Positions 5,639 to 23,905 of a stretch of DNA of 31,185 nt are shown here, one piece after another. The number at the start of each line of letters is the position of its first letter. Position 1 is the stretch's first letter. Source of the DNA: a virus; the IMG/VR virus record IMGVR_UViG_3300046006_000420, positions 1 through 31,185 of that record, one strand, 5' to 3'. The translations under genes were made by a program, and so were the position numbers. The notes under the pieces are model-generated. The model was not told the origin of the DNA. It did no database searches and saw only the letters and a program-made list of their open reading frames with translations.

Positions 5639-8600
5639 ATGGCAAAAGCACTCCCCCTTCCAGACGGCACAACTGTAGCTATTCGTGAGGGGGAAACCCC
5701 GGCCCAGACATGGGAGCGTGCGCAACGCATGTATCCCGAAGCGTTTGGAAACGTAGAAGAAAAAGCCAAACCAACACAGGACACCACCGGATTTAAAGCC
5801 GCTGCTTCCGCTGGCGCTACTCGTTTGGGCGGTGAGTTTGAACTACTCAAAGGCAAGCTCGGCGTAAAGAGCGAAACCGAAGCGCAAAAAGAATACGAAG
5901 CCGCGCAAAAACGCGCACAAGAGCGCTTTACACCCACTGAAAAAGGCTGGACGGAAGCGCCGTTCCAAAAGTTCAAAGAAACCCTTGGCGGCTCCGTTCC
6001 GTATATGGTAGCGCCTGCTGCCGCGGGTCTGGCCGCATTGGCTGCACCTGTAGCCGCTCCCGTAGCTGCCGGTCTTGGGTTGCTGGGCGCGGGTGCGGTA
6101 TCTACCGGCCAGTTCACCGGCTCCAATCTTGCCGCGCAAATGGAAACAGGCAAGACGCTGGAGGAAGCCAGCCTCGGCAAGGCGGTCGGCGCAGCGATTC
6201 CACAGGCGTTGATTGATACGGCAGCTATGGCGCTCTTGCCCGGTGTGGGCAAGCTCTTCGGCTCTGTAGGCTCCAAGCTAACCGCAGAACAAGCCAAAGC
6301 AATCGCCTCACAGACACTGGCCCGCACCGTTGCGGATTACACAGCCAAGACCGGCATGGCCATGGGGCGCGAAGGTGTTACGGAAGTTGCACAACAGGTT
6401 CTTGAGCGTTTGCAGGCAGGTTTGGAAATTACCGACCCCGAAGCCCGCAAAGAGTACATTGACAGCTTCATTGGCGGCGCTGTCTTGGGTGGCGCAATTG
6501 CCCCTGTTGGCCGTGCATTTGAACGCGGTGGTGCCAAAAGTCAGGCCGCTGCTGAAGACCGCAAAACAAAACTTGCTGCAAGCGCAGAAGAGCAGCGCGT
6601 TGCCTCTGAAGCCGCTGCCAAAGAGGAAGCGTTCAGAAATTCCCCTGACTACGCGCTTAAAGTTGCAGAAGACTACGCCGCTGCCGAAAAAGCTAAAGCC
6701 GACTTACTGGCCCAAAAACGCACGATTGTTGAAGGGTCGCCTACTGAGACTGCGGACAAAGCGTTTAACACGATTATTACCAAACAGCTTCAAGCGCAAG
6801 CGCCGGAGCTTAAAGCGCTCGGTGACGAATATGTCCGCCTTGAGCCAACCATCAAGGATGCTGCCGAGCAAAAGCGTATTGCGGCCCTGACGCCTGAAGA
6901 GTATTCGCTGGAGCAGATGAAGCAGGTCTCTGTACCCGAAGGCGTCTCGACCACGACGGGCGAGCAAGAAAAAGCCGCGCCCCCGGAAGACGCATACGTG
7001 GCAGACCGGATTGCGCTGGCCAAAGACCAGACAAACGACACCGCCGATGTCGGTGACTATGTTGACTACTTGATGGCCAACCAGCGCATGGCGCAGAGTA
7101 TCGTAGAGAATCAGACAGCGCTGCCCGGCCTCAATCGTGAGGAACAGAACGCTGTTCGCGGCGGTTTGAAACTGCAACTGCAAGAGGTTGCTCGGCAACG
7201 CGCTGCCGCAGCTCAAGCCGGTACTGCCGCATCTCAAGCTCGTGTTGGCACCGTAGAGGAAGAAGAACAAGCCGCCATCGAAGAACAACGCCGTGCGGAC
7301 GAAGCTGAAGCTACCCGCATGGGAACGGAACGCGCTGACGCAGAACGCCAAGTTCGTATCGCTCCTGAAGTTGAAGGTATTCAGCGTCTGGGCAAAGCGC
7401 CCGAAGGCACATGGAGTTCTGCTAACGCGGACGCTATTTTCCGCAGCATGTACCAAAAGCAGGCGGACGAGAAGCAAGTTGATAAGCTTCTGTCAACGCT
7501 ACCCATGCGCTCTATCAGCACCCCCGGTCAAATCTATTCCGGTATGGGGTTTGAGGCAGCAAGCCGCCGTGACTTGCTTACCCGCATGGCCGTTGCCAAA
7601 GCGCACGCTGGCGTGGAAGACGTGACGCAGCTTCGGCAAGAACTAGCCGCGCTCGACTCTCGCCCCGCGCAAAATACCGATATTGCGGAACGCCTCCCCG
7701 GTGAGGGCGTGCTTCCCGAAGCAGAAAAGAAAACCATTGCGGCTGAGAAACATGCTGACTGGCAGAGCCAGACCCTGCGCGAGTTCATTCGGTTCCTCCA
7801 AGACCGCAAGCAAGGCAAAGTGCGCGGCACGCTGCGGGCTAACCGCGAAGAACGTTTGGCCAAGGCGTCTGTTGAATTCAAAGAGGCGTTTGCTAAAAGC
7901 CACCTTGAAGAGATTGGGGCGCGACTGGATGCGTTTGGCCTCCCACCACTGACTGCGGTTGAGAAGAAGATTGCCGAAGGCCGCGTCATGCGAAACCTGA
8001 ACGAGCTGGAACAACGCTGGGGCGAGGCTCCGGCCAAGGCACCTGCGGGACAGAAAGCGTTTGCTGCGCCTGTGCAAGCTGTGGAAGTTCTGCAAGAGCA
8101 GATTCGCAGCGGTATGTTCAAAACGATCAACGATGCTGCTGAGCGAATCAACTTGTCACGGCGTGGAGACAAGGCCGGAAAGACTCGCACGGCTGAAGGC
8201 GGCGCACGCATCGCTACGCCTGACGAACTCAAACTTCGCGCCGAGTCCACCGTTCCAAAAGACGACAAGCGTATTGCTACCGAGTTGGCAACGCAGTTGC
8301 GGGATACGCTGGATCAGCGAACTTATGCTACGCCAGAACAGCCATCACCCGCAGGCAAAGGGGGTTCTAATCGCGCAGACATGGCGCTTACTTTTGGCGC
8401 TCAAGAGCGCGGGATGCGTGCGGATATTGCCAGTCGCGCAGAGTCTCTAGACGAAGACACCAAAGACTTTGTGCGCCTTGCAGCCGATACGTTAGACCAG
8501 ATCGAGGACAAAGCGCTTATCACACGCCTCAAAGAAGGTTTGCAAGACGTGGCTGAAGGCCGCAAAGTCAGCGCACTGACGCAGCAAGAACTCAAAGACT

Positions 8601-11600
8601 TTGTAGCCACTCGTGCCAAGGATGTGCAGAGCACCACGCGCCCCGGCGCTACCCCGGAAGAGTTGCAACGCACCAGCGCCCAGCCGCAAATGTCGTTGGC
8701 GGGGTTTGACGAAGTTGGAGAGCGTACTCAGCGTGCTACACCTAAGAACTTCCAGAAGATGCTGGACTCCAAGGATGTGCAGGGTATGCGTGCGGCCATT
8801 GCAAAAATGCGCACCGACAACATTGAAGCAATTCAAGAAGCCGCACGTAACACCCCGGCTGCGCTGCGTGCATCACGTACCGCCAAAGCTCGTGTAGCGT
8901 ATAACGCGGCACTTGCACAGGAACAGAAAAACTCTTCAGTTGTCAGTAAGCTAAAAGCCGTGTTCACAGAAGAGCGTGCGGGCGCAAGAGAAGTTGTTGA
9001 CGCGCTGCAAAATCAACTTGTTGGTTTGCAAAAAAGAATTGACGAAGTTGCCGAAGTTCGTTCGATGTTAGGAAAAGAAACAAACGACATGGCGTTGATG
9101 ATACAAGCGCCAAGTGTTTTGGGGCAGGAAAAAGCACTTCAAAAACGTTTGAAAGAAACGCAGACTGCTTTGGATTTTGCTAAAGATTTGGTTGTTGCCG
9201 TAGACAAACAAAACGCTGCCAGTGCGACGTTGTATGACATGCTCACTAAAGAAGTCACAACTACTACAGAAGTTCAACGTACTAGAGCGGGTGGATTTAG
9301 ATCAGCGGGGGGTAAGTTCCAAGCGTTCGAAAAACAGCAGCGGCGGGGCGAGCAAGCGGTTGAGGATGCGCGTAAAGAGCTAGATGCTGCTGAAAGGGCG
9401 GAGCGTGAAGCTGCCGTAGAGGTTAAAGAAACTAAGTCGGTACAGTCAGAGTTCCGCGATGCGGCGCAACGTGCTCGTGAAGGTTTGGACTTGCCCGGAC
9501 TGCGCAGCACGGTTGATACGACCAAGATGCGGACGCAGATTAGCAACATCCGCAGCGCTATGGGATCGCTCGATGCTCAACTCAATGCGGAAACAGACCC
9601 CGTTAAGAAAGCAGCTATCCAAGCAAAGATAGACGCTACGGCGGCTAAGCTAGAAACTGTTTACGCGGACGCCCCGCGTATCACGACGGCTATTGCTGAA
9701 AAAGACCAGCTCTTGTTTGAGCAGACGTTTGACGACGTTCATATTGCCGCTTACGACAAGCAGATGGCCAAGGCACGCATCAAGGGCGGCGAGTACGGCC
9801 CCGCACTAGCCAGCCGCAAACAAGGCGCAGTTGCGCGAAGCGGCCCGTTGACGGTACAGACCGGCGAGAAGCGTGCAACTCCGGCAACTGAAATGGCCGG
9901 TAGCGCTCTTGAACGCGTTGCGCAGGAACGTGCCGCGCTGCGTGAGTTGGAAGACCGCGTTGCGTTCTTGCGCAAAGAAGGCAAAGATAAAGTTAAGGGG
10001 CGGCTGACGGATGCCTTTAAAGCGCTGCAAGAGAAAGTTGCAAAACAAAAAGCGGTTGTTGCAGAAACGGAAGACGCACAGAAAGCCCTCGTTGCTGCTG
10101 TGCGCGATGTAAGTAAAGAAGGACGTGAAGCACGCAAAGAAACGGGCGGGACTGAAGGCGGGCGATTCCCTGAACGTCGCGCAGGAAATGTTTTGTTCCG
10201 CACAACCACTCGTGGCGGTCCTACGTTGGCTACCGAAGAAGTGTCAGATATTGCAGATCGCATCACCGCTGACTGGAAGAACGCTCCTGAAATTGTTGTA
10301 GTGGCAACGGAGAACGAACTGCCGCTGCGCATATTGGGGCAGCTTGTCAAGCGCGAAGCCACCAAAAACACGCCCGGCTTGTTTGATATTCCAAGTGGCA
10401 AAGTGTATTTAATTGCCAGCAATCTTCGTAGTGCCCAAGATGTGGTGCTTACGGTTGCGCACGAAGCAACAGGCCACTACGGTCTGCGCGATTTACTTGG
10501 CGGCGACTACACCCGCACGATGGACAGCCTCTACGCAGGCAACCCGGATGTGCGTAAAAAAGCCGACGCGAAGCTGTCAAAAGAACCTGAACTAACTCAG
10601 CAGGTTGCCGTTGAAGAAGTGCTGGCCGACATGGCCGAGACGGGCGGTGTTACGCCCGCTGAGAAAAGCGCCTTGCGCCGTATCTACGATGTTCTTCGTA
10701 ACTGGTTCCGCACCACCTTCAAGCTGCCAAACGTCACCGATGCGGAAGTCCAACAGCTTGTTGCCAACGCCCGCAAGCAGGTCATTGAGGGCGGCGAGAA
10801 AGCAGAAGGCATGGCACCGAGCGGCGAAATACTGCGCCGCACTAAACAGACGGAGCCAGCTAACGCACTTGAAGCGCTGGCGCGGGACATTACAACACAG
10901 CCCAAAACATTTAAGGAAAAGCTTGGCAGCAATTTTGCACTGCAAACCGAAATGCAAGCCGTGGACATGCGTGCCGGTTTGCGCGAGACGCTCCGCTTTG
11001 GAGACGACAGTCTGTTTACCCAAGCCATGTACCATGTGCGCAAGGCCGAGCAAAAGATGGCGCAGATGTTCACGGTCATGAATAGCGGCCCGTTGGTGTC
11101 GTACAAAGACGAGAAAGGGCTTGTCGGCTACCGAAGCTCTAACCAGAACAGCGCTCGTGATGTGTTCGATGCCATCGCTGACATACCTGTGGACGACCCG
11201 CAGTTGAAAACCAACATCGCACAGGCGTATCTAGTTGCTATCCGCGCAAACAACAAAGGGCTGTCGAAACTGGACCTCGGTGAACTGGGCGTTACACAAG
11301 AAGCCCTTGACGCTGCCTTGGCCGCTGCCGATGCCGACCCTGCCCTGAAAACCGCACTGGAGACCGTGCGCCGCAAGTACAACGCTTACAACAAGGGCTT
11401 GATTGAGTTTCTTGCTTCGACTGGCCGCATCTCTAAGAAGACAGCAGCCGACTTGCTGAAAGACGGCGATTACGTTCCGTACTACCGTGTGCGCGACAAC
11501 GGCATGGCGGAGCTAAACTTTGGCAACAATGTCACGTTCAACGTGGGCGACATCCGCCGCCAGCCATACCTTGCGGAGCTTAAAGGTGGCCAGACCAAGT

Positions 11601-13492
11601 TGCTGCCCCTGAACGAAGCCATTCAGCAAAACACATTGTTGCTGACGGACATGGCGCTGACCAACAATGCTGCGAAGAGCGTTGCGTACGGTTTGCAAGC
11701 GCTGGGCAAAGGCATGGGTCCAGTCGATCCCAGAACAGGCAAGCCTAGCAACTTGATGCCAATTAAAACTGGTCCGGGTCCTGCTGACGCACGCACCATT
11801 CGTTTCTTCCAAGAGCCTGACCCAAGCGACCCGAAAGACACAGGCGAGCGCCACTTGCTTGTCAATACCAAAGGCACCGCAGCCGAAGGCATCCCCGCCG
11901 AGCTGGTCGTGCAAAGCCTGGAAGGAGCAAGCCTTGCGCTTCCCGGATTCCTCAAGCTGGGCGGAGCTGCTGCCGATCTGCTGCGTGCTGGTGTGACGCG
12001 CACGCCTTTGTACATTGCCCGCAAACTTGTTCGTGAGCCGATGGCTGCGGCCTTTACGGGTGGTCTGAACACCAACGCGTTCTCGGCGGTCTTCAAAGCA
12101 GGTGCTGAGTTTGTACGCATGAGCCGTGGCACTAGTGACGCACAGGTTAAACTGATCGAGAAGGGCTTGATTCAGTCCAATATTTTCGCAGGCGACATGT
12201 CTGACATGAAGAAGATGGCTCTTCAGCTTGCCAGCGGCAAAGACCAGAGCGCATTCGACAAAGTACTGGCCGCAGCCGACCGATACGCAATGCGTGCTGA
12301 TGCTGCCACACTGGCGCTGGTACTCAAGAACGCTGAAGAGAACGGGCTGTCAGAAGTCGAAGCCGACATGATGACGATGGAGTCGATGAACTTCTACAAG
12401 CGTGGGCTTTCGCCTACGCTGCAATACGCCAGCCGTTTGATCCCGTTCTTCAACGCGCAGATTCAAGGTCTGAACGTGTTGGTTAAAGCTGCACGGGGCA
12501 ACATGCCGTTCGAGGAGCAGCAGCAAATCAAGCGCAAGTTCTTCAACAACGCCATGCTGCTAATGGCTACGGGTCTTGTGTACGCAATGGCGATGGAGGA
12601 CGACGAGACCTTCCGCAACGCCCGCCCACGGGACAAGTACTCCAACTTCTTCCTGCCTATCCCGTTTGTGGATGAGCCAGTTAAACTGCCCATTCCGTTT
12701 GAAGCCGGTTACTTCTTCTCGCTGGCTGTGGCTGCCGTTGACGGTATGCGTGCCGAGACCGATGGCAAGGCGCAGTTTCAAGCGCTGCGTGACTTGTTTC
12801 TAGGTTCTATTCCCGGCTACTCGTCAATGGGCATTCCTCAACTTGTTAAACCGGCGTTTGAAGTATGGGCCGACAAGAATTTACTGACAGGTGCCCCCGT
12901 GGAACCTCGCCGTTTGCAGGGCGTCAACATTGAGGAGCGGTACCTTGCGACCACCACAGAGCTTGCCAAACAGATGAGCAAGGCGGTGCCAATCCTGTCG
13001 CCTGTTCAGATCGAGCACATTGTGCGCGGGTATCTGGGCGTGCTGCCCTTGGTGGCTGCGGCGGGAGCCAACAGTTTGTTTGAGGGTGAGAAAAAGGCGG
13101 AGAAACCCGAAAGCCGTGCGTCTGAGTTACCGTTGATTGGCACCGCGTTCCAAAAAAAGTACGGTGGTGGCGATGCCGACGTGGTATACCGCGAAGCGCA
13201 AGACGCCATTGAGGCTCGCAACACATTTAACAAGATGCTCAGAGAAGGCCGCAGAGAAGACGCCGTTGCTTACCGCGAGGAGAACAAGGCTGATCTAGCT
13301 ATGGCTTCCGCTGCGGGGCAGTATCGGCAAGTGGTTGGTCGCATCAACGAGGACATCCGCCGCACGCAAGATCGCACTGACTTGACACCACAAGAAAAAC
13401 GCATCCGTCTGGATGCGCTGGATAAAGCCAAACAGGAACGCGCCGATGCGTTTATTAGTCTTTCACGCAAAGTGGCGGAGCGAACAAGCTAA
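5639..13492 (+). CDS. Giant polyvalent-type ejection protein with zinc-peptidase-like domain and LPD38-like C-terminus
   Basis: This 2617-residue protein starts at ATG 5639. Residues 1-40 (LPDGTTVAIREGETPAQTWE) are a small head often seen on phage injection proteins. Hydrophobic Gly/Ala segments follow at about 121-158, 182-205 and 275-292. Long charged helical and coiled-coil stretches fill about 300-560 and 1050-1480. Residues about 1545-1720 look like a zincin: H1608-E-A-T-G-H1612 with a downstream VEEVLADMAE (E1659/E1660, D1664) that could supply the third zinc ligand. Residues about 2110-2380 (TPLYIARKLVREP, then LIPFFNAQIQGLN and a hydrophobic helix) resemble large polyvalent protein-associated domain LPD38. 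Polyvalent proteins are known to enter cells with phage or plasmid DNA and to bear protease, antirestriction or other effector domains. I infer that this one is packaged and ejected. The zincin might act on the wall, on host defence, or on the protein itself. Confidence 0.8.
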   Translation: MAKALPLPDGTTVAIREGETPAQTWERAQRMYPEAFGNVEEKAKPTQDTTGFKAAASAGATRLGGEFELLKGKLGVKSETEAQKEYEAAQKRAQERFTPTEKGWTEAPFQKFKETLGGSVPYMVAPAAAGLAALAAPVAAPVAAGLGLLGAGAVSTGQFTGSNLAAQMETGKTLEEASLGKAVGAAIPQALIDTAAMALLPGVGKLFGSVGSKLTAEQAKAIASQTLARTVADYTAKTGMAMGREGVTEVAQQVLERLQAGLEITDPEARKEYIDSFIGGAVLGGAIAPVGRAFERGGAKSQAAAEDRKTKLAASAEEQRVASEAAAKEEAFRNSPDYALKVAEDYAAAEKAKADLLAQKRTIVEGSPTETADKAFNTIITKQLQAQAPELKALGDEYVRLEPTIKDAAEQKRIAALTPEEYSLEQMKQVSVPEGVSTTTGEQEKAAPPEDAYVADRIALAKDQTNDTADVGDYVDYLMANQRMAQSIVENQTALPGLNREEQNAVRGGLKLQLQEVARQRAAAAQAGTAASQARVGTVEEEEQAAIEEQRRADEAEATRMGTERADAERQVRIAPEVEGIQRLGKAPEGTWSSANADAIFRSMYQKQADEKQVDKLLSTLPMRSISTPGQIYSGMGFEAASRRDLLTRMAVAKAHAGVEDVTQLRQELAALDSRPAQNTDIAERLPGEGVLPEAEKKTIAAEKHADWQSQTLREFIRFLQDRKQGKVRGTLRANREERLAKASVEFKEAFAKSHLEEIGARLDAFGLPPLTAVEKKIAEGRVMRNLNELEQRWGEAPAKAPAGQKAFAAPVQAVEVLQEQIRSGMFKTINDAAERINLSRRGDKAGKTRTAEGGARIATPDELKLRAESTVPKDDKRIATELATQLRDTLDQRTYATPEQPSPAGKGGSNRADMALTFGAQERGMRADIASRAESLDEDTKDFVRLAADTLDQIEDKALITRLKEGLQDVAEGRKVSALTQQELKDFVATRAKDVQSTTRPGATPEELQRTSAQPQMSLAGFDEVGERTQRATPKNFQKMLDSKDVQGMRAAIAKMRTDNIEAIQEAARNTPAALRASRTAKARVAYNAALAQEQKNSSVVSKLKAVFTEERAGAREVVDALQNQLVGLQKRIDEVAEVRSMLGKETNDMALMIQAPSVLGQEKALQKRLKETQTALDFAKDLVVAVDKQNAASATLYDMLTKEVTTTTEVQRTRAGGFRSAGGKFQAFEKQQRRGEQAVEDARKELDAAERAEREAAVEVKETKSVQSEFRDAAQRAREGLDLPGLRSTVDTTKMRTQISNIRSAMGSLDAQLNAETDPVKKAAIQAKIDATAAKLETVYADAPRITTAIAEKDQLLFEQTFDDVHIAAYDKQMAKARIKGGEYGPALASRKQGAVARSGPLTVQTGEKRATPATEMAGSALERVAQERAALRELEDRVAFLRKEGKDKVKGRLTDAFKALQEKVAKQKAVVAETEDAQKALVAAVRDVSKEGREARKETGGTEGGRFPERRAGNVLFRTTTRGGPTLATEEVSDIADRITADWKNAPEIVVVATENELPLRILGQLVKREATKNTPGLFDIPSGKVYLIASNLRSAQDVVLTVAHEATGHYGLRDLLGGDYTRTMDSLYAGNPDVRKKADAKLSKEPELTQQVAVEEVLADMAETGGVTPAEKSALRRIYDVLRNWFRTTFKLPNVTDAEVQQLVANARKQVIEGGEKAEGMAPSGEILRRTKQTEPANALEALARDITTQPKTFKEKLGSNFALQTEMQAVDMRAGLRETLRFGDDSLFTQAMYHVRKAEQKMAQMFTVMNSGPLVSYKDEKGLVGYRSSNQNSARDVFDAIADIPVDDPQLKTNIAQAYLVAIRANNKGLSKLDLGELGVTQEALDAALAAADADPALKTALETVRRKYNAYNKGLIEFLASTGRISKKTAADLLKDGDYVPYYRVRDNGMAELNFGNNVTFNVGDIRRQPYLAELKGGQTKLLPLNEAIQQNTLLLTDMALTNNAAKSVAYGLQALGKGMGPVDPRTGKPSNLMPIKTGPGPADARTIRFFQEPDPSDPKDTGERHLLVNTKGTAAEGIPAELVVQSLEGASLALPGFLKLGGAAADLLRAGVTRTPLYIARKLVREPMAAAFTGGLNTNAFSAVFKAGAEFVRMSRGTSDAQVKLIEKGLIQSNIFAGDMSDMKKMALQLASGKDQSAFDKVLAAADRYAMRADAATLALVLKNAEENGLSEVEADMMTMESMNFYKRGLSPTLQYASRLIPFFNAQIQGLNVLVKAARGNMPFEEQQQIKRKFFNNAMLLMATGLVYAMAMEDDETFRNARPRDKYSNFFLPIPFVDEPVKLPIPFEAGYFFSLAVAAVDGMRAETDGKAQFQALRDLFLGSIPGYSSMGIPQLVKPAFEVWADKNLLTGAPVEPRRLQGVNIEERYLATTTELAKQMSKAVPILSPVQIEHIVRGYLGVLPLVAAAGANSLFEGEKKAEKPESRASELPLIGTAFQKKYGGGDADVVYREAQDAIEARNTFNKMLREGRREDAVAYREENKADLAMASAAGQYRQVVGRINEDIRRTQDRTDLTPQEKRIRLDALDKAKQERADAFISLSRKVAERTS

Positions 13493-13686
13493 GCAGCGCG
13501 GTCGGGGAGGCGATAGAACCACACCCCGATGATGCCGTCCCGGATGCCCGCAATAGCGCGGGCATCTCGGTATCTAAGAGCTTGGTTAAGCCCCTTGACG
13601 CGCACGGCTTCCGTGTCGAGGCAGGGGACGAAGAACCCCTGCCCGCGTTCAGTCTTGTCCCACGGGAACTGAATTGAGTAGCTCAT
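13489..13686 (-). CDS. Small conserved phage protein (FPWDK family)
   Basis: This 65-residue protein starts at ATG 13686 with AAGGA six bases upstream. It overlaps the end of the primase-helicase gene by 38 bases and its TAG overlaps the TAA of the convergent giant gene. The sequence SIQFPWDK, GFFVPCLDT and GIIGVWFYRLPD is compact and mixed alpha/beta. I recall small phage proteins with this FPWD...FFVPCLDT pattern but know of no assigned function. Being last in the - strand operon, it is translated with the replication genes. Confidence 0.75.
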   Translation of the reverse strand: MSYSIQFPWDKTERGQGFFVPCLDTEAVRVKGLNQALRYRDARAIAGIRDGIIGVWFYRLPDRAA

Positions 13687-16582
13687 GGTCCTTCTCGGTT
13701 ACAAGGCGTGAAATCTTCAGCACTGCCACGCGCATCTGAGGGCCACGGGTCTTGGCGGTCATGTCCTTCTTGGAGATTTCCGTCACCTTGAACATGTCCC
13801 CAAGCTGGCGCTTGAAGTCAGCGTAGCCGAAGCTCATGTTGGCGCAGCAAGCCTTGAGCATACTCTGCTCGATGAAGTAGTCGATGTACCCCGGCGTTGT
13901 GCCGTGCTCGATGCGCCCCATGATGCGTGAGCGGGTAGTCGAGTCATCGACCTCCTTGCCGTTGCCAAGCTCTGCCAGAACGCGGTTGCCCTCGATGTGG
14001 CGGATAACGATGAAGTGGCCGTAGTGTTCACGGGTATAGGCGTTCAGGACATCTTCAGCGCTGCGGGCGTTGCCCTTGATGTTGTTGCGCATACCTGTGA
14101 CGATGCCGTGCAGGAACTCAATGATCTTGCCCATGGGGATGTCCACAACACCCGCGTGTTCCTTGGACAACAAGATGCCAGCGCCGACCAACTCGGCAAT
14201 ACCCGCCATCCAGAAGCGCTCGTCATTGGTGGCGTCAAACTCTTTGTACATGTTCGACACAATCTCGGGCACCAGCGTCTTGAGCATCTCGACGTTCTTG
14301 GCCATGTATTCGACCAGCATGTGGCCAGCCACAGCGTAGTTGTGCTGCAAAGACTTGACGATCTCGATCTCATGCGGCTCCCACTTCAATGGCTGGTCCA
14401 TGATGAACTCCAGCAAGCGGCGCAGCTCGCCCTCGGATGCGTGGTTGCGGCCCCCAGTGAGCATGTCCACGGCGTGGGTGTTAGACGACATGATTGCCAC
14501 GGTCATCCATGTGGACAGGTTCAGGCGCTCTTTGTTGGAGCCGGACTCCATGCGCTCCTTGCCACGGCCCTCGGTCATATCCAGCAGGAACTCTGGGAAC
14601 CACTCGAAGTTGTTGCGGTTCTTGCTGGTGATCTCGTCCGTAATCAACGGGTTGCTGTTGAGCAGGCCCAAGCGCTGCTGCATGGCTACGGGGGATGTGC
14701 CCTTGCCTGTGCGGTAGTGGGTGGGGTGGCCCCAGACGGATGCGGCTGCTTCCAGCGCCAGCGTCTTGCCCGTGCCGGACTCGGTTGAACCGCAGTGGTA
14801 GGTCATGCCGTAGATACCTGTGAAGCGCATCAGTGGCGCTCCAGCACCGGCAAGCATAACGGCCAAGTGGGCGTACATCTTCTTGTGGATGAGCAGGTTA
14901 ATGAATGCTCGCCACGCCTCGATGGTGCCGGTCGGCTTGGTGTTTGCCACGATGTTCTCCAGCCCCGCCATGGGGACCGAGACAGGCGCTGCTGTCTTGC
15001 TGTAAATCTTGCCAGCGAAGACGTAGGTATCGTCTTCTTGCCAGCCATAGTTTGATGGCACTTTAACGGCTGCCTTGCCGGTACTAGCTTGTTCCACACA
15101 TGCCCTAACATATTCAAAAAGGTTTTTGTCGTTACCAGCGCCGAAGGCGGCGATGATGTTTTGTTGAGCCAGCGATTTAACTGTCTCGTCTCTGCTCACT
15201 ACCGCCCGCTGCGGGATTGTGATTGTTGCTGGCCCCTCGGGTCTGAGCGCCAGCATGTGAACGGTGTGGTCACCGTTAGTGTTCAGGATGTCAACCACGA
15301 ACAGGTCGTAAGGCAGGAGCATCACTTGCTTCTTGGATGTGTTGCCGTCGGCGTCTTCCATCGACTTCTCGGAGAACACGCCGCCCTTGGAGCCGTAGCC
15401 GAACCCACGCGGAGGCGTAGGGCGCAGCAGCTTCTTGACCTCGGGGGCAATGCTCGGGCTTTCGGACGGGATGACGATCTCAATTTCCTTCTCCTCAGTC
15501 TCGACAGCGATCTCTCGCCCAAGCGCCAAGGGGTTGGTAATTTTGCCGAAGTGTTGACACCCGTCACACACGCCGGGGTTCTCGCTCTCGAACTTCACGC
15601 ACGGGTACGGCCCCTTGATCTGGGCCTGCTTCTCGCGCATCCGCACCTCGTCGTAGGGATGCAACTCACTGAGCCACACCGCTGCGCGGTCGCCGTCCGA
15701 ACACTTCTGGGCAATGCTCAACCAGCCACGCCAGAGCGGCTCCATGCCGTCATCTTCTGCGTTCTCAACGAAGTGCTTGAGCTGGGCGCAGCCGATACCC
15801 TTCTTGGTCTTCAGGTAGATCGTGCCGAACTTGGTCGTGCTGTTCTCGAACAGCTTGGCTCCGGCCATCGTTGCTGGTACAGCAGGCGCTGCATCTGGGC
15901 GCTTACCCGGCAGACCCAACGCGGACGTTGCCGATACTGGAGCAATCGTAGTCAGCTTGGCCGCAATGGCTTGGCTGATGGTGTCGAAGTCGAACCTGTC
16001 ACCCTCGGCCAGCAGCTTGACCTGCTTGGGTTCACCATACTTCCACGACCCGTCATCGTTCTTCTTGAAGTTAAACGTGTCAGGGATGCGCAGAACTCGG
16101 GCGGCGTCCGCCGTCACAGTCATATCGATGTTGAGCTTTTGCTGCTTGCACAGGCGCTTCAAGTTCTCGGCAGTGGGCTTCCACACAGCCACATCGATGT
16201 CTTCGGTGAGCGGCCAGTAGCAGTGCAACCCGCCGCCAGAGAACACGATCCACGGAGCACCAAGCGCGTCCAAGCCAGTATCGGCAAGGAACGCACCAAG
16301 CGCCAGTGCAGCTTGCTTCTTGGAGGCGTAGCCGTCCATGTCGATAAACAAAGACTTGATGAAGCGTGCGTTCTCCGCAGTGCGCTTGCCTGCTGTCTCA
16401 AACGTAGCCAGCGCGAAGTAAACATCCTGCTGCGCTTCGACCCAGCCTTCTACGGCAGGTGTGATCTCTTCCAGAGCGTTGACATATACGTGCTTCTTTT
16501 TGTTTTTGCTGAATCCTGCCGCACAGTAAACCCCTGTAGTCGGGGACGGCAGAACAACCGCAAGGAATTCAAGCGGGGTCAT
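13649..16582 (-). CDS. Primase-helicase: archaeo-eukaryotic primase fused to DUF927-like ATPase
   Basis: This 977-residue protein starts at ATG 16582 with AAGGA upstream. Residues about 75-175 carry primase-polymerase motifs: D81-M-D83 for metal binding, SGGGLHCYW with H120, and ARVLRIPDTFNFK with R162/R165. A cysteine group follows (C328, C339, C342, with H344) and may bind zinc. The C-terminal half is a P-loop ATPase: Walker A TESGTGKT with K606 and Walker B LITDEIT with D649/E650, followed by an arginine-containing SEGELRRLLEF segment typical of ring helicases. It should synthesize primers and unwind the fork in one chain, replacing separate DnaG and DnaB functions. No other replicative helicase is in the window. 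The DUF927 label is from memory of the fold and layout. Confidence 0.9.
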   Translation of the reverse strand: MTPLEFLAVVLPSPTTGVYCAAGFSKNKKKHVYVNALEEITPAVEGWVEAQQDVYFALATFETAGKRTAENARFIKSLFIDMDGYASKKQAALALGAFLADTGLDALGAPWIVFSGGGLHCYWPLTEDIDVAVWKPTAENLKRLCKQQKLNIDMTVTADAARVLRIPDTFNFKKNDDGSWKYGEPKQVKLLAEGDRFDFDTISQAIAAKLTTIAPVSATSALGLPGKRPDAAPAVPATMAGAKLFENSTTKFGTIYLKTKKGIGCAQLKHFVENAEDDGMEPLWRGWLSIAQKCSDGDRAAVWLSELHPYDEVRMREKQAQIKGPYPCVKFESENPGVCDGCQHFGKITNPLALGREIAVETEEKEIEIVIPSESPSIAPEVKKLLRPTPPRGFGYGSKGGVFSEKSMEDADGNTSKKQVMLLPYDLFVVDILNTNGDHTVHMLALRPEGPATITIPQRAVVSRDETVKSLAQQNIIAAFGAGNDKNLFEYVRACVEQASTGKAAVKVPSNYGWQEDDTYVFAGKIYSKTAAPVSVPMAGLENIVANTKPTGTIEAWRAFINLLIHKKMYAHLAVMLAGAGAPLMRFTGIYGMTYHCGSTESGTGKTLALEAAASVWGHPTHYRTGKGTSPVAMQQRLGLLNSNPLITDEITSKNRNNFEWFPEFLLDMTEGRGKERMESGSNKERLNLSTWMTVAIMSSNTHAVDMLTGGRNHASEGELRRLLEFIMDQPLKWEPHEIEIVKSLQHNYAVAGHMLVEYMAKNVEMLKTLVPEIVSNMYKEFDATNDERFWMAGIAELVGAGILLSKEHAGVVDIPMGKIIEFLHGIVTGMRNNIKGNARSAEDVLNAYTREHYGHFIVIRHIEGNRVLAELGNGKEVDDSTTRSRIMGRIEHGTTPGYIDYFIEQSMLKACCANMSFGYADFKRQLGDMFKVTEISKKDMTAKTRGPQMRVAVLKISRLVTEKDHELLNSVPVGQD

Positions 16583-17421: not shown

Positions 17422-18396
17422 TTACTCGTCATCCCAGTCAGCGACCACATCGGCCAGCGCTTTCTTGCCGGGCACAGCGGTTGGCTTTGCCGCCGCTGCC
17501 TTCTTCACGACTGGCTCTTCGTCTTCCTCGTCTGCCACTTCAACCACGGGGGCTGGCTTGGCCTTGGCCTTTGGCTTCGGTGCGGGTGCTTCGTCTTCTT
17601 CCTCGACTTCTGGTGCTGGTGCAGCCTTGGCAGCGGGAGCCTTGCCCTTGAGTGCGTCCGCAGGCTTGCCCATGTCCATACCAGCGGCGTCCATCGTGAT
17701 GGCCTTCTTGGCTTCGGCGGTGTCGCCCTGCTTGGTGGCTTCAGTGAACTCGTCATCGGTCAACCAGCGCATGGCTTTGAAGAACAACTTGGGGGACTCG
17801 CTGGCAGTGTCGAACTTCATACGGGTCACAACAGTGCTGGGGTCAACGCCTTGGGCCACGAGCCAGCGAGCGTACGCTTGCAGTGGGCGGTTGTCGCCTT
17901 CTTCCTTGCCGAAGATCGAGGTGGCTGGCAGGGACAACTGCATCACATCGCCTTCAATGTTGTTGGCCAGCGTCACGGCCAAGCGCTGCTGATAACGGCA
18001 GGCACGGCTATTGCCTTGACCGGAGCCCGCCACGTTCTGTGGGCAGGAGGCGCAGGTGTCGGACTGCTTGGCCTTGCTCTTCGGGTCAGGCTTGTCGCCG
18101 TCATTGGACTGGCAGTCAGGTGCGGTAGCGGTTGCGTCCTTGTCGTACTTGGCTGCGTAGAACACGCGGGCCACCTTCGGGGCGGCCTTGACGATCACCA
18201 CATCGAGGAAGCGCTCATCGACTGCTGCGATTTCTTTGCCGTCAGAGATCAGACGGAACACACCGCCTTTGATCGACACGCGCTTACCGCTGGCACCAGC
18301 ACCGCCACCCGCAAGGGCTTTGGCAATGTCAGACATCTCGGCCTTGCGTGCAAACGCTGGGACTTGGGAGGGGTTAAAAAGGGCTACGTTGCTCAT
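17422..18396 (-). CDS. Putative single-strand DNA-binding protein with Cys4 site and acidic tail
   Basis: This 324-residue protein starts at ATG 18396 (MSNVALFNPSQVP). Residues about 38-230 look like a globular beta-rich domain. C95, C115, C118 and C133 form a possible zinc site (C-x19-C-x2-C-x14-C), comparable in idea to the zinc site in T4 gp32. Residues about 235-310 are a Lys/Ala/Pro/Glu linker, and the chain ends in ADVVADWDDE, an acidic tip with an aromatic residue like those of SSB, gp32 and T7 gp2.5, which recruit partner proteins. It is flanked by the primase and SNF2 helicase regions. No direct SSB motif is certain, so the name rests on architecture and context. Confidence 0.6.
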   Translation of the reverse strand: MSNVALFNPSQVPAFARKAEMSDIAKALAGGGAGASGKRVSIKGGVFRLISDGKEIAAVDERFLDVVIVKAAPKVARVFYAAKYDKDATATAPDCQSNDGDKPDPKSKAKQSDTCASCPQNVAGSGQGNSRACRYQQRLAVTLANNIEGDVMQLSLPATSIFGKEEGDNRPLQAYARWLVAQGVDPSTVVTRMKFDTASESPKLFFKAMRWLTDDEFTEATKQGDTAEAKKAITMDAAGMDMGKPADALKGKAPAAKAAPAPEVEEEDEAPAPKPKAKAKPAPVVEVADEEDEEPVVKKAAAAKPTAVPGKKALADVVADWDDE

Positions 18397-18407: not shown

Positions 18408-18812
18408 TTACTTGCTTGGTTTGCGAACGGAAATATCGTACTCAGCGTTGGAGTTGAGTCCGGGTGGCAGGGTGCCGGGGTTTTCTTCGAGGAACTGCTT
18501 CATGTTGCCCTGAGCAATTCGTTTCTCGAACAGATCGAGCGCGTCATGCTGCGTCACAAAGGTCTTGAACGAATCCCAGTCCGATGTTGAGTAGCGTGTC
18601 TTGATCGACATGACAACTGTGCCTTGCGGCGTGTTGACGGATGTGACACCAAGCGCTTGCATCTGGTCTTTCATTGCGTGCTTGATGTCGTCTTGCGTGG
18701 CCTTGAGCATCTCCACTTTCGTGTCGTACTCCTTGGTCAGCAGTTCGATTTCGCTGCGAATCTTTCGGTAGACCTTCGCCAGCTTGTCGAGGGGGATGAC
18801 TGGTGTAGTCAT
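18408..18812 (-). CDS. Conserved phage coiled-coil protein of the replication module
   Basis: This 134-residue protein starts at ATG 18812 (MTTPVIPLDK) with AGGAG seven bases upstream. An in-frame ATG at 18875 would add 21 residues, but it lies in the promoter region and has no ribosome site suited to it. Residues 8-50 are a charged coiled coil (KVYRKIRSEIELLTKEYDTK). The C-terminal part, TRYSTSDWDSFKTF and RIAQGNMKQFLEENPG, with LPPGLN near the end, is a pattern I recall from many phages, always without a known activity. It sits between the SSB candidate and the SNF2 helicase, so a role in DNA replication or recombination is likely. Confidence 0.8.
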   Translation of the reverse strand: MTTPVIPLDKLAKVYRKIRSEIELLTKEYDTKVEMLKATQDDIKHAMKDQMQALGVTSVNTPQGTVVMSIKTRYSTSDWDSFKTFVTQHDALDLFEKRIAQGNMKQFLEENPGTLPPGLNSNAEYDISVRKPSK

Positions 18813-18880: not shown

Positions 18881-20443
18881 TTATTTTTTAATTTCCATGT
18901 TGAACATTTCGGTCAAAAGTGAGTGGCTGCTCACATTACTTTGCAGTGCCTTGAACATCTTCTTCTCGATGGGACTGCCCTCGATGTGGATGACCGTCAC
19001 CTTGTCAGAGTCCTGACCCTTCCTGTCAGCTCGTGCAATGCACTGAACGTACTGCTCAACAGACATCAACGGTCCGTAGAACACAACGGTGTCAGCAGCA
19101 GTTAGGGTAATCCCGTGTGCCGATGCTTGCGGTTGCATCACGAGGACTCGCGGGTCGGCTTCCGTTTGGAAGCGCCTGATGATGTCCGCACGCTTGGTCG
19201 GTGTCACGCCGCCGTGGATGCACTCAGCGCTGATGCCCTTCTTGCGCAAGTGCGTATGCAGTGCGTCAATGCTGGAGCGGAACAGCGCAAAGATCAAAAC
19301 CTTGCGGTCAGTCTCCTCAAGGATTTCTTCAATGACACTCATGCGGGGGCTGGCGTCAAACTCTACTACCTCATGGTCGTCCGTGTAGGCAGCGCCGCAA
19401 CTGATCTGGAGCAGCTTGGACACGCTAGCTGCGGCATTGACCGCGCTGATTGTCTCCCCCGCCGCATGGATCATCATGCTGTCCTTGAGCAAGTTGTAGT
19501 ACTTGGCCTGCTGCGGCGTGAGCGCTACCTCTCGCGTTACTGTGACGACTGGCGGCAAGTCCAGACACTGCGCTTTGGTGAACCTGATGGCCGGTTGTAG
19601 CGCGTCATGCACTAGGTTCTTTGCGTCAGGCTTTGGTGCCCACTTGAACATGGTGATCTTGTTCATCACTTTGTCGCGCCATGCTGTGAAGAACTTCGGA
19701 ACGCCCTCCGGGTTCACCAGCTTGGCCAAGCCATACGCATCGACCGGGGACTGTGACGCTGGAGTTCCCGTCATCATCCACAAAAAAGTCTGGGGCTTGA
19801 TGATTGTTGATAGGGACTTCCACCGCTTGGTGCTCATGGTCTTGTACGCATTGGCTTCATCAACGATAACCAGATCAAACTTGCCGTTGGCCACGATCTC
19901 ACTGGCGATCAGGTTCAAGCCCTCGTAGTTGGTGATGACGATCTCGTAGTTCTTCTGAATCATCTCGATGCGACGCGATGCTTGCGGGTGGTGGGCAATG
20001 ATGGCCGAGCGGTGGATGACGCTGTTGCTAATGTCTCCCATCCACGCCGACTGCATGATCGACAACGGGCACAAGATAAGTACGCGCCGAATCTCTCCGC
20101 GTTTCATTAGGTAGTCCGCAGCCCACAGCGCACTGAGCGTCTTGCCTGTGCCGGGTTCACTGAACACGAAAGCCTTGCGGTTGAGCGTCAGGAACGATGC
20201 CGTTTCAATCTGGTGTTCCATCGGCGTGTAGCGTCCGGGCCAGTCGTACTTGCGTGTGATTGGCGATGGCAAGTTCTTGACGCCGAGGTTCTTGAGAACC
20301 CTGACTTCATCCAACCCCCAGAACACCGCTACCGAACTTGATCCGTCATCGTGCTCCTCAACTACCTTGCTTCTCGGAATTACCCGATATTTCTCAGGGC
20401 TGCGCGTACGCAAGAGCAGCGCCTTGTTGTCGATAATTTCCAT
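18881..20443 (-). CDS. SNF2-type DNA helicase / translocase
   Basis: This 520-residue protein starts at ATG 20443 with GGAGAAG upstream. Superfamily 2 motifs are in order: Q78 upstream of motif I, SEPGTGKT with K101, motif Ia LILCPLS, motif II VDEAN (D195/E196, DEAN rather than DEAH), motif III TGTPAS (225-230), motif IV KVLIFALF, motif V ASAHGITLTAAD and motif VI QCIARADRKGQ with R471/R474. This is the complete set for an ATP-driven double-strand DNA translocase of the SNF2 group. Length is near minimal, with no added chromatin or nuclease domains. In phages such enzymes are thought to help recombination or replication restart. It lies immediately after an HNH protein gene. Confidence 0.92.
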   Translation of the reverse strand: MEIIDNKALLLRTRSPEKYRVIPRSKVVEEHDDGSSSVAVFWGLDEVRVLKNLGVKNLPSPITRKYDWPGRYTPMEHQIETASFLTLNRKAFVFSEPGTGKTLSALWAADYLMKRGEIRRVLILCPLSIMQSAWMGDISNSVIHRSAIIAHHPQASRRIEMIQKNYEIVITNYEGLNLIASEIVANGKFDLVIVDEANAYKTMSTKRWKSLSTIIKPQTFLWMMTGTPASQSPVDAYGLAKLVNPEGVPKFFTAWRDKVMNKITMFKWAPKPDAKNLVHDALQPAIRFTKAQCLDLPPVVTVTREVALTPQQAKYYNLLKDSMMIHAAGETISAVNAAASVSKLLQISCGAAYTDDHEVVEFDASPRMSVIEEILEETDRKVLIFALFRSSIDALHTHLRKKGISAECIHGGVTPTKRADIIRRFQTEADPRVLVMQPQASAHGITLTAADTVVFYGPLMSVEQYVQCIARADRKGQDSDKVTVIHIEGSPIEKKMFKALQSNVSSHSLLTEMFNMEIKK

Positions 20444-20707: not shown

Positions 20708-21376
20708 TTACCTCTTAGTGTTGAACTCGCAGCCAGTGCAGGGGCACCAGCCGCAGAGCGGGGTTCGTGTGGGGTTCCACACATCGTTCGATACTGACGC
20801 CTCAATCTTAGCGACTCGCTCCCGATAACGCCACCACTCAGCATCGGCTTCGTCAACCGCCATGCTGTGCTTGACCATCGAGTTCTTGACCACGAACAAA
20901 AGCGCAGAGTTAACCTTGCGTACGTGCGGGAAGTGCTTGAACACCATCAGGGACATCAGGCGTAGCTGGTCGCGGTCTGGGTACTTGTCGTTGCCCGTCT
21001 TATAGTCCACCACCCACGCTGTCATGTTCTCGTCGTCAATGATGAGCAAGTCGGCAATACCCCGCGCCCATGCATCCTTGGACTTCCAGTCGCATACCTG
21101 CAAGTCCTGCGTCAGCGCCATCTGAAGCTCCGCGATCTTGCGACCCGGCTTGGCGATCAGCGCATCGAGCGTGTCCTTGACGAACTCGAACTCAGGCGGT
21201 ATGGGTGTGCCATCAGCCACGTAGTCTTCTGCGGCCTTGTGTAGTACCGTTCCGTAGCGCGTTGCCTCAGTCTCAACGAAGGGGTAGTTCTTGAGAATCT
21301 TGACTTCGTGGTAGCGGCGGGCGCAGCCTTCGTAGTCCTTGAGGGAGCTGTGGCTCCACGTTACTTTCTTGGTCAT
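20708..21376 (-). CDS. PD-(D/E)XK exonuclease, Cas4/RecB-like, with cysteine cluster
   Basis: This 222-residue protein starts at ATG 21376, which shares one base with the stop of the gene before it. Nuclease core: WSHSSLKDYEGCARR near the start (C18), YGTVLHKAAEDY with H46, E83, GIADLLIID with D109, VVDYKTG with D124 and K126, and Q137. The C-terminus has C208, C211, C213 and C216 (CGWCPCTGC). With C18 these could hold an iron-sulfur cluster, as in Cas4 and AddB nucleases. Its likely job is end resection for recombination or repair beside the phage helicases. No Cas1 or CRISPR repeats are present, so an adaptation role is not indicated. Confidence 0.88.
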   Translation of the reverse strand: MTKKVTWSHSSLKDYEGCARRYHEVKILKNYPFVETEATRYGTVLHKAAEDYVADGTPIPPEFEFVKDTLDALIAKPGRKIAELQMALTQDLQVCDWKSKDAWARGIADLLIIDDENMTAWVVDYKTGNDKYPDRDQLRLMSLMVFKHFPHVRKVNSALLFVVKNSMVKHSMAVDEADAEWWRYRERVAKIEASVSNDVWNPTRTPLCGWCPCTGCEFNTKR

Positions 21377-21704: not shown

Positions 21705-23675
21705 TTAATTTTTAGCCAAGCCGTAACGCTTGTGTGCGCCCCCGTCAGCGGCCAGCGGTATGCCCGGCATGTACTTCGGCTCCATAGTCATCTGCGCCAA
21801 GACCCATGTCTTAGCGTCAACAACGTCCTTATCTGGCACAACGACAATCTGCTCGTCATGCACTGTTCCCGCCACGAAGTACTTCTTCGCGGTTCGCAGC
21901 ATCCCATCAGTCATCACGCATCTCGCTACGCCCTGCGTGACATTGTTGGTTATTTTTCCTGCGTACAGTTTAGTCTCATCTTCTCCGTATGTCCACTGCA
22001 ATCTGCCCTTCTCGTCTTTCCCCGGCTTCAGGTCAGGGTACAGCAGGCTCATGCCAGAGGGCAGCACGATCTCCCCCTTCTTGAACGTCACGCACTTGTG
22101 GGTGTACTCCTTGCCTTCGTACAGGCTGTACTGGATCAGGTGCCCGAACAGGTTCCACAACGCCACCACAGGCTCGGCAGTCAGGCGGTACTTGTCGATG
22201 ATGGCCTTGGCCGCGAGACAGTGGATGACCAACTCCGTCATGGTGCAGATGTGCGGAATCTCTTCGAGCTTCTTGATGTTGTCATCCCAGTCCAAGAACT
22301 TAGCCGCCGCTTCGGCAGTTACGCCTAGAGTTTTGGCCGCGTCTTTGGTATAGCGCACGGGCGGAGCACCCAGAAAACCGACCAATAGCTGCGCTGCAAA
22401 CGCTGCCCAACCTAACTGGTACCCCGCACCAATAAGTGCGCTCTTGGCCGCTTGTCGCTCGACAGGATGCGTGTCCTTGGTCATTCCGGGTATGTTAAAC
22501 ATCCGTGCCCCGAACAAGGCGTAAGCGTCTTGCCCCGACCTAAAAATGTCGAGCAGCCCATCGTAGTCAGCCAGCCACGCCAACACACGCGGCTCGATCT
22601 GGGACAAGTCACCGACAACAATGGTGTGCCCGTGCGGTGCCATGATCGACTTGCGCAGGAACGAGCCGCGCTTTAAGTTCTGCATGTTGATGGCGCTGCC
22701 TTTGCTGGCCGTCCACCTGCCCGTGCTGGCCCCGTAGTAGCTGAGCGGTACCGGCAACGCTCCACGCTTGCTGATGTCGAGGAACCGTTGAGCACGCGTA
22801 CGTTCTGTAGTTGATTTGACTGCCAGTCTTGCTTCGCATAGATGCGCAACGTCCTCATTTTCTCCGTTGAGCAGCGCTTGAAACATAGCGTCATTCTTAG
22901 CGAGAGCAAGCGTGCTCTTGCCGGTTGCCTTACTAATCTTGCGCGGCGCTGGTATGCCGAGCGCTTCCAATGCTGCTGCAAACTTAGGGTTCGATGCCAG
23001 TACAGCCTCGTCCAAGCCGAGCCGATGTAGTAGTTGCTCACGTTTTTCCTTTTCCGTGTGGAGTGCGTCCGTCAGCATGGCGCTGTCAAGACTGAGCACT
23101 GGGTTCGTGTACATCTTGAGCGTCATGTCGATGAGCCGGAGTTCCTTCGCTGGGTACCCTTGAACAAGGCGCTCGAAAATTCGCTCGCAAAGATATACGT
23201 CGTGTTTGCAATATTCTGCAAGCTCAAGTTCCATGTTCGCGTCCAGCTTGGCCAGACCATCGGTACTGTATACGGCGGTCCCTTTGGCGGGAAGACCAAA
23301 AGCTGCTGCAAGTCGGGCGAGACTGTTGCCAACCTCAACGCCACGCAAAGCTCGCGCCATTGACAGGGTGTCGAAGATGAAACAGGGGTGGATGTCGTAC
23401 TCCCAACCCAGTATGGATACGTCGAACTGTGCGTTATGAGCAAGGATAGCGGTTCGTCCCCAATCATACTGTTGAAGGTATTTATGTAGGTCTCGTCCTC
23501 GTACCCACTCAATTGGCTCATCGCTTCCGTATACATGTACGCAAGCTCCGAATGCGTGGAATCTTTCATGGCGTATGTACTCCTCGGTTGTCATCATGGA
23601 CAGTGAGTAGCCGGTCTTGCGGTCCCACACTGTCTCGAAGTCAATGCTCACGATCTGGTCGTAGGGGGCGCTCAT
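21705..23675 (-). CDS. DNA polymerase, family A, with 3'-5' exonuclease
   Basis: I chose ATG 23675 (MSAPYD, 656 residues) because it forms an ATGA overlap with the preceding stop. ATG 23687 would add four residues. The exonuclease domain shows SIDFETV (D12, E14), LAHNAQFD and YCKHDV. The polymerase domain shows motif A VVGDLSQIE (D356, E361), motif B from R407 and K411 to Y419, and motif C VHDEQ (H606-D607-E608). Motif B is odd: the residue matching E. coli Pol I F762 is I415, and the Gly after Tyr is Gln. There is no 5'-nuclease domain. It should be the phage replicative polymerase, with the primase-helicase downstream in the same operon. Confidence 0.95.
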   Translation of the reverse strand: MSAPYDQIVSIDFETVWDRKTGYSLSMMTTEEYIRHERFHAFGACVHVYGSDEPIEWVRGRDLHKYLQQYDWGRTAILAHNAQFDVSILGWEYDIHPCFIFDTLSMARALRGVEVGNSLARLAAAFGLPAKGTAVYSTDGLAKLDANMELELAEYCKHDVYLCERIFERLVQGYPAKELRLIDMTLKMYTNPVLSLDSAMLTDALHTEKEKREQLLHRLGLDEAVLASNPKFAAALEALGIPAPRKISKATGKSTLALAKNDAMFQALLNGENEDVAHLCEARLAVKSTTERTRAQRFLDISKRGALPVPLSYYGASTGRWTASKGSAINMQNLKRGSFLRKSIMAPHGHTIVVGDLSQIEPRVLAWLADYDGLLDIFRSGQDAYALFGARMFNIPGMTKDTHPVERQAAKSALIGAGYQLGWAAFAAQLLVGFLGAPPVRYTKDAAKTLGVTAEAAAKFLDWDDNIKKLEEIPHICTMTELVIHCLAAKAIIDKYRLTAEPVVALWNLFGHLIQYSLYEGKEYTHKCVTFKKGEIVLPSGMSLLYPDLKPGKDEKGRLQWTYGEDETKLYAGKITNNVTQGVARCVMTDGMLRTAKKYFVAGTVHDEQIVVVPDKDVVDAKTWVLAQMTMEPKYMPGIPLAADGGAHKRYGLAKN

Positions 23676-23905
23676 GCAGTACCCCACACCAAAGTTGTCT
23701 TGCGTTTGTCGGACTTTGGAAAGAACACCAGCGAGAAGACGGGGAAATCTACAAGCTCGTTGGGGTCTAGTCTCTCGCCGTTACAGATCACAGCGCCTTG
23801 TTGCAGCAGCCTTCGTAACTCGCCGTTGCTCATTTGCGTGCAGGGGGTTTCTGTGGACATTGGTAGTGCAGGGCGAAGCTGGTTCAGGTATTGCAGTGCG
23901 GTCAA
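23672..23905 (-). CDS. Small S4-like phage protein with TTG start
   Basis: This 77-residue protein starts at TTG 23905, with AAGGAG eight bases upstream and a TTGA overlap with the previous stop. It ends in ATGA overlap with the polymerase. The centre SNGELRRLLQQGAVICNGE (residues 26-44) resembles the helix-loop-strand core of S4 RNA-binding domains, where RR-x2-Q-G-V and NG are hallmarks. The C-terminus DFPVFSLVFFPKSDKRKTT is hydrophobic then basic. Proteins of this look occur in many phages as hypothetical proteins. An RNA- or nucleic-acid-binding role is an inference from the short motif. Confidence 0.75.
   Translation of the reverse strand: MTALQYLNQLRPALPMSTETPCTQMSNGELRRLLQQGAVICNGERLDPNELVDFPVFSLVFFPKSDKRKTTLVWGTA

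Follow-up and report, generated by a model that had tools for sequence, protein, structure and literature searches.

The window, by which we mean the whole stretch of viral DNA analysed (31,185 nucleotides, a 31-kb virus record that is possibly a fragment), carries a block of replication genes on its minus strand, and within this block lies the candidate gene for a single-strand-binding protein (SSB) described here. The features of the locus are as follows.

13649-16582, minus strand: primase/helicase (DUF927), from profile matches; found downstream in 81/83 contigs.
17422-18396 including the stop codon, minus strand: candidate SSB gene, 324 amino acids, ATG start, from the open reading frame and its relatives.
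17425-17454, minus strand: acidic Trp tip ADVVADWDDE, residues 315-324, from sequence and conservation.
17473-17691, minus strand: Ala/Pro/Lys/Glu-rich linker, residues 236-308, from the conservation profile of 22 sequences.
17692-18288, minus strand: predicted OB-fold core, residues 37-235, from the model of the window protein and a high-confidence homologue model.
17998-18114, minus strand: putative metal-binding insertion from C95 to C133 (C95, C115, C118, C133), invariant in 48/48.
18343-18396, minus strand: conserved N-terminal peptide, residues 1-18, from conservation in 22 sequences.
18408-18812, minus strand: partner gene, 134 amino acids from its ATG, DUF7307/phrog_13900 and weakly Mu Gam-like, from profile matches; context 127/127.
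18881-20443, minus strand: SNF2-type helicase, from profile matches; found upstream in 99/99 contigs.
20708-21376, minus strand: PD-(D/E)XK exonuclease of the same replication block, from profile matches.
21705-23687, minus strand: family A DNA polymerase of the same replication block, from profile matches.

The initial annotation had taken 17422-18396 as an open reading frame and had ascribed to its product four cysteines, a long linker and an acidic tip with a tryptophan, and all of this was borne out. The frame is real, is read from an ATG on the minus strand and encodes 324 amino acids; 11 bases separate its start from the stop codon of the upstream neighbour. C95, C115, C118 and C133 sit where they had been placed and are invariant in all 48 non-redundant core sequences, as are P93, G100, P103, N121, P157, S160, P202 and F206. 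In 22 sequences the mean frequency of the top residue is 0.81 over residues 37-235 and 0.77 over the tip (residues 315-323) but 0.61 over the variable linker (residues 236-308), which is rich in Ala, Pro, Lys and Glu; the protein ends in ADVVADWDDE. The N-terminal peptide (residues 1-18) reaches 0.86, with low model confidence in this segment. The first 30 residues of the window protein have a net charge of +1, which is negative in many relatives. Promoter and terminator signals did not rise above those from shuffled sequences. Elsewhere in the window, a single 2617-amino-acid reading frame (5639-13492, plus strand) runs opposite to the replication block and probably encodes a giant virion protein, its function being a guess, and an M20/M28-type peptidase gene (phrog_4191; 29891-30997, minus strand) has the same orientation as the block.

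The window protein matches PHROG 27714 (E 2.5e-29) and PHROG 23155 (E 8.5e-12), both listed as "unknown function", and these profiles are matched by 48 and 44 of the 48 relatives, respectively. Pfam contains no family that matches it, and matches to NCBIfam profiles were at chance level. One scan of IMG/VR with the window protein gave 226 relatives, the top 80 of them being retained, and scans with Rollin, Xp15, Rhizobium-phage and clade-alignment queries added more; the 48 sequences aligned share less than 93% mutual core identity, and reading frames cut by a contig end as well as the named phages' own records were left out of the alignment. Relatives are present in 16 named phage records, with identities of 24-37% and without exception labelled hypothetical or uncharacterised, and a search with the KPP25 member led to 29 records, including Stenotrophomonas phage AXL3, Thermoanaerobacterium phage THSA-485A, Faecalibacterium phage Epona and Meiothermus phage MMP7. 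The proteins are up to 555 amino acids long, and their linkers can be much longer than that of gp32. In bacterial genomes no relative was found with the window protein as query and one Bradyrhizobium contig with the clade alignment; among 398 genomes of the phylum of that contig, the only one with a relative was this genome itself. A plasmid search gave one Paraburkholderia record and two Clostridia elements. Because of this near-absence from bacterial genomes the family looks like a phage family, not a chromosomal one. Among open-licence PMC papers we found none that names the family of PHROGs 27714/23155 as an SSB. This large phage family is so far unnamed and unannotated.

Gene order around the family members is highly conserved. 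It was counted in 128 distinct contigs, after 20 of 148 loci had been dropped as repeats of a contig. Where the contig had room, the DUF7307/phrog_13900 gene lay directly upstream of the family member in 127/127 cases, the SNF2 helicase farther upstream in 99/99 and the primase/helicase downstream in 81/83, the two misses being Xp15, which has its primase on the other side, and a close relative (L092). The values for 47 non-redundant loci are 46/46, 36/36 and 32/34, respectively. Epona has a similar order of SNF2 helicase, Gam-annotated protein, homologue and primase/helicase. The partner gene at 18408-18812 matches PHROG 13900, "minor head protein", and is called "D-alanyl-D-alanine carboxypeptidase" in other records; its constant position within this block together with weak matches to Mu Gam and DUF7307 suggests that both labels are wrong. 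In Rhizobium phage RHph_TM3_14A a "putative integrase protein" (L086:15117-18200) occupies the position at which relatives have the primase/helicase.

The replication block had been described as lacking any other SSB gene, and this holds for the families tested, in the window and in its main-branch relatives. PF00436 was matched in 0/26 records (the window and 25 relatives), with 10/14 control genomes responding, and in 0/7 further phages (φC31, AXL3, THSA-485A, Epona, MMP7, ctUtU524 and PW916). PF08804 was matched in 0/26 records at E <= 1, its sole responding control staying below the cut-off, and PF10991 in 0/26 records and in no control either. In the window and 24 relatives, phrog_112 and phrog_1192 were both matched in 0/25 records, whereas their controls, T7 and T4, respectively, matched. 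The absence thus refers to these five families and to records of which some may be fragments. A possible rival SSB, the "DNA binding protein" gp47 of Xp15, was discarded because of its match to pyrimidine dimer glycosylase (PF03013). The initial annotation had also named a true SSB gene elsewhere in the genome as evidence against its proposal. None of the tested families turned up in the window or the main branch, but three distant relatives from gut elements do have an SSB-family gene nearby: a protein matching PF00436 is encoded near the family member in L263, L270 and L271 (E 1e-4, 1.6e-4 and 1.1e-11), the first two matches being below the curated cut-off. In these three the family member is therefore not the only SSB.

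The AlphaFold model of the core of the window protein has a pLDDT of 76.9 and a pTM of 0.72; that of a homologue from another branch (L106) has a pLDDT of 90.5 and is the better of the two. Structural Z scores, calculated for Foldseek's own candidates only, place the φC31 directionality factor gp3 on top for the window protein (9teh_I in 9teh, Z 8.4, 154 residues, 4.0 Å), followed by the OB domains of BRCA2 (Z 7.0), RB69 gp32 (Z 6.7, 144 residues, 4.2 Å) and gp32 with Dda (Z 5.5). For L106 the best matches are T4 gp32 (Z 7.5, 160 residues, 4.3 Å) and RB69 gp32 (Z 7.5, 163 residues, 4.5 Å), with the gp32 alignment spanning positions 37-250 of the model; then come gp3 (Z 6.6), two more gp32 entries (Z 6.0 and 5.9) and BRCA2 (Z 5.0), and all remaining matches have Z <= 3.7 and are mostly RPA, MCM, CST and SSB-like OB domains. 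The scores for a gp32-like OB core, 6.7 and 7.5, are below 8, the tool's caution level, under which Z may reflect a common arrangement and is weak on its own, but they stand well above the other rows, which at rank 50 have fallen to Z 2.1 and 2.7 for the two models. Foldseek matched neither model to a PDB entry at E <= 0.001; among viral models it gave 19 matches at this threshold, none listed under a functional name. Sequence searches of the PDB found nothing at E <= 10 with the single protein and chance-level matches with the family profile (best E 0.52). A profile-profile comparison with gp32 was not significant (E 0.15 and 0.10 in one comparison, equalled by 6 and 4 of 60 shuffled profiles). 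The initial annotation had called for an OB fold and had seen a gp32-like layout without obvious sequence relationship. The predicted models agree with this: their best matches are gp32 and other OB domains, gp32 cores lead for the better model, and no sequence match to gp32 is significant.

The family shares with gp32 (PF08804, phrog_224, phrog_1192), which is the top structural match along the full domain model of L106, a single core, a cysteine-rich insertion with a CxxC motif and an acidic tail with a conserved tip. Unlike gp32, the window gene does not match PF08804 and has no clearly basic N-terminal domain; the net charge of +1 over the first 30 residues makes a weak case for a gp32-like basic B domain. 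The zinc ligands of T4 gp32 are given as His64, Cys77, Cys87 and Cys90 (PMC3012046). In one gp32 profile alignment, the score of which is not significant, C115xxC118 stands opposite C87xxC90 of gp32, and C95 coincides, as judged by eye, with Cys77. By analogy with the His/Cys3 site of gp32, the four invariant cysteines, a different ligand set, would hold a structural metal ion, probably zinc; given the insignificant profile score, we only infer this structural zinc. Two distant members, AXL3_43 (L258:10894-11793) and PW916 (L269:5773-6672), have lost the CxxC motif and have Lys-rich basic tails, and are thus natural variants without the full cysteine set.

Except in KPP25, AXL3_43, ctUtU524 and PW916, whose tails are basic, the family has an acidic C-terminal tail with a conserved tip. 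The branch of the window protein has WDDE or something close to it as its tip, and the Rollin branch GWDD or SWDD; Xp15 and Effie end in Trp. In the Rhizobium branch the tip is LDDMLNNLL or similar, which resembles the end of T4 gp32, LDDLLNDL. T7 gp2.5 and Enc34 ORF6 (PF21265, PF10991) are likewise phage SSBs with an acidic tail, and the end of the Enc34 protein, WDEDEV as read from a printed primer (PMC5686142), resembles WDDE, but the window family has no HMM match to them; the word "zinc" is absent from the main text of the Enc34 paper (PMC5686142). The THSA branch was surveyed in 10 proteins, with MMP17 (H93) left out. Three of the 10 have IPF or LPF at the very end or one residue before it, THSA-485A (DEENIPF), Epona (DKDLPFV) and L266 (DGELPFD), four end in LPA (L263, L264, L265, L270), L271 has LPH, MMP7 has MPLDV and L267 has no such tip. 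SSB-family proteins usually end in LPF, and the tip of E. coli SSB is of this IPF/LPF type. Distant relatives thus resemble bacterial SSB in their tips, whereas the window family has no HMM match to PF00436. An acidic [ILMV]PF tip is found in four of 2,749 distinct reading frames of at least 120 amino acids in the loci, namely the three family members from THSA-485A, Epona and L266 and a 918-amino-acid protein of Epona, a primase/helicase by its length and record. The gene for the latter (L260:10496-13252), which adjoins the homologue ending in DKDLPFV, likewise has an SSB-like tip, DDTDDLPF. A looser pattern was found in 21 of 2,791 reading frames, grouped by eye into nine family members, three SSBs, the 918-amino-acid protein and eight others. 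The SSB-family proteins of the three gut elements (L263:257-661, L270:2493-2891, L271:3569-3943) end in LPG or LPE. Their tips, DGDREPLPG, DGDRESLPE and DGEREPLPG, are nearly identical to those of the family members in the same elements, NGDYEKLPA, NGDCEQLPA and DGEREELPH, which supports an SSB-type tip in the family.

The family itself, its invariant cysteines, the gene order, the fold similarity of the models and the conservation of the tip were obtained by computation. The best reading is that of a new, unnamed family of gp32-type phage SSBs, and at a probability of roughly 80% the window protein would be such an SSB that coats single-stranded DNA while the genome is copied. The fold of the models, the invariant cysteines, the gene context, the tips and the absence of the tested SSB families from the main branch all speak for it. 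The initial annotation had spoken of a new type of SSB; the family is indeed new, but its kind, to go by the predicted gp32 fold, is already known. It is not placed in PF08804 because that profile is not matched. Speaking against an SSB are the lack of a significant gp32 match, the gp32 Z scores below 8, the four basic tails, the CxxC motif lost twice and the SSBs beside three members. Under the SSB reading, one OB-fold domain (about residues 37-235) would bind single-stranded DNA, the insertion with its four cysteines being stabilised by a metal, probably zinc as in gp32. The flexible acidic linker would hold out the short tip (ADWDDE), which, by analogy with gp32 and gp2.5 (PMC5686142, PMC3012046), may compete with DNA for the cleft and recruit partners. 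Judged by gene order, the likeliest partners would be the adjoining primase/helicase, the polymerase or the SNF2 helicase. A role in cooperativity is possible for the conserved N-terminal peptide.

The alternative we take most seriously, although it is unlikely, is an OB-fold recombination mediator or accessory protein for single-stranded DNA; it would act together with the Gam-like partner and the SNF2 helicase, the fork being coated by host SSB. This fits the fact that the Gam/DUF7307-like gene and the SNF2 helicase are strictly linked to the family, but linkage to the primase/helicase is nearly equal (81/83); BRCA2 OB domains among the structural matches and the SSB-family genes near members in L263, L270 and L271 also speak for a mediator, whereas the main branch encodes no SSB of the tested families and the tips are of SSB type. 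Least probable, and in our view hardly credible, is that the domain has no OB fold at all, resembles gp32 through a generic arrangement of beta-sheets and belongs to a zinc protein with another function. The poor Foldseek E-values in the PDB, the modest Z scores (6.7-8.4) and the lack of a significant sequence link would allow this, but the models of two distant members lead to one small set of structures, all of them ssDNA-binding proteins or gp3, scores drop to 2.1 and 2.7 by rank 50, and tips and gene context agree independently.

Likewise improbable is a recombination directionality factor like φC31 gp3 (PF18897), the target of which would be an integrase instead of single-stranded DNA. 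gp3 ranks first among the structural matches of the window protein (9teh_I, Z 8.4) and third among those of L106 (Z 6.6), and three of the 48 core sequences weakly match PF18897 (best E 0.0016), which gp3 itself matches. However, the window gene does not match PF18897, which was found in 0/26 records and in no control, and the lead to this Pfam family (Gp3-like) was dropped after 0/10 proteins matched on re-scan. The profile comparison of the window family with gp3 was not significant (E 0.13), and gp3 differs in having no long linker and a known activity on integrase. Moreover, the large serine recombinase PF07508 was matched in 0/25 family records (the window possibly being a fragment), in contrast to the φC31 control, so a directionality factor does not fit the main branch, and AXL3 is reported to have no lysogeny genes (PMC7504290). 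Serine recombinases are annotated in THSA-485A and Epona, and there a second role is possible.

Returning to the gp32-type SSB, it is tempting to speculate that the window family, T4 gp32 and φC31 gp3 all go back to a single phage SSB, that gp3 was recruited to regulate an integrase or still does so as a second role, and that SSB tail tips are exchanged as short modules that fit the replication partners of each host or phage. We put this forward tentatively, as a possibility somewhat short of even odds. The gene for gp3 lies before a 2.4-kb gene that is followed by the DNA polymerase, and the HHC...CGCP segment of gp3 is conserved in 10/10. A report that gp3 fails to bind att-site DNA in the absence of integrase (PMC3132441) counts against a common origin of gp3 and SSBs but is silent on single-stranded DNA; among open-licence PMC papers we found none linking gp3 to an OB fold.

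If the gp32-type reading is true, a widespread unnamed gene central to a conserved phage replication block would have a function, and several sequenced phages of Pseudomonas, Xanthomonas, Acinetobacter, Rhizobium and Stenotrophomonas would be supplied with their missing SSB. The differing tips would form a natural series of SSB tips for testing the choice of partners, and the origin of the φC31 directionality factor, a switch used in genetic engineering, would become testable.
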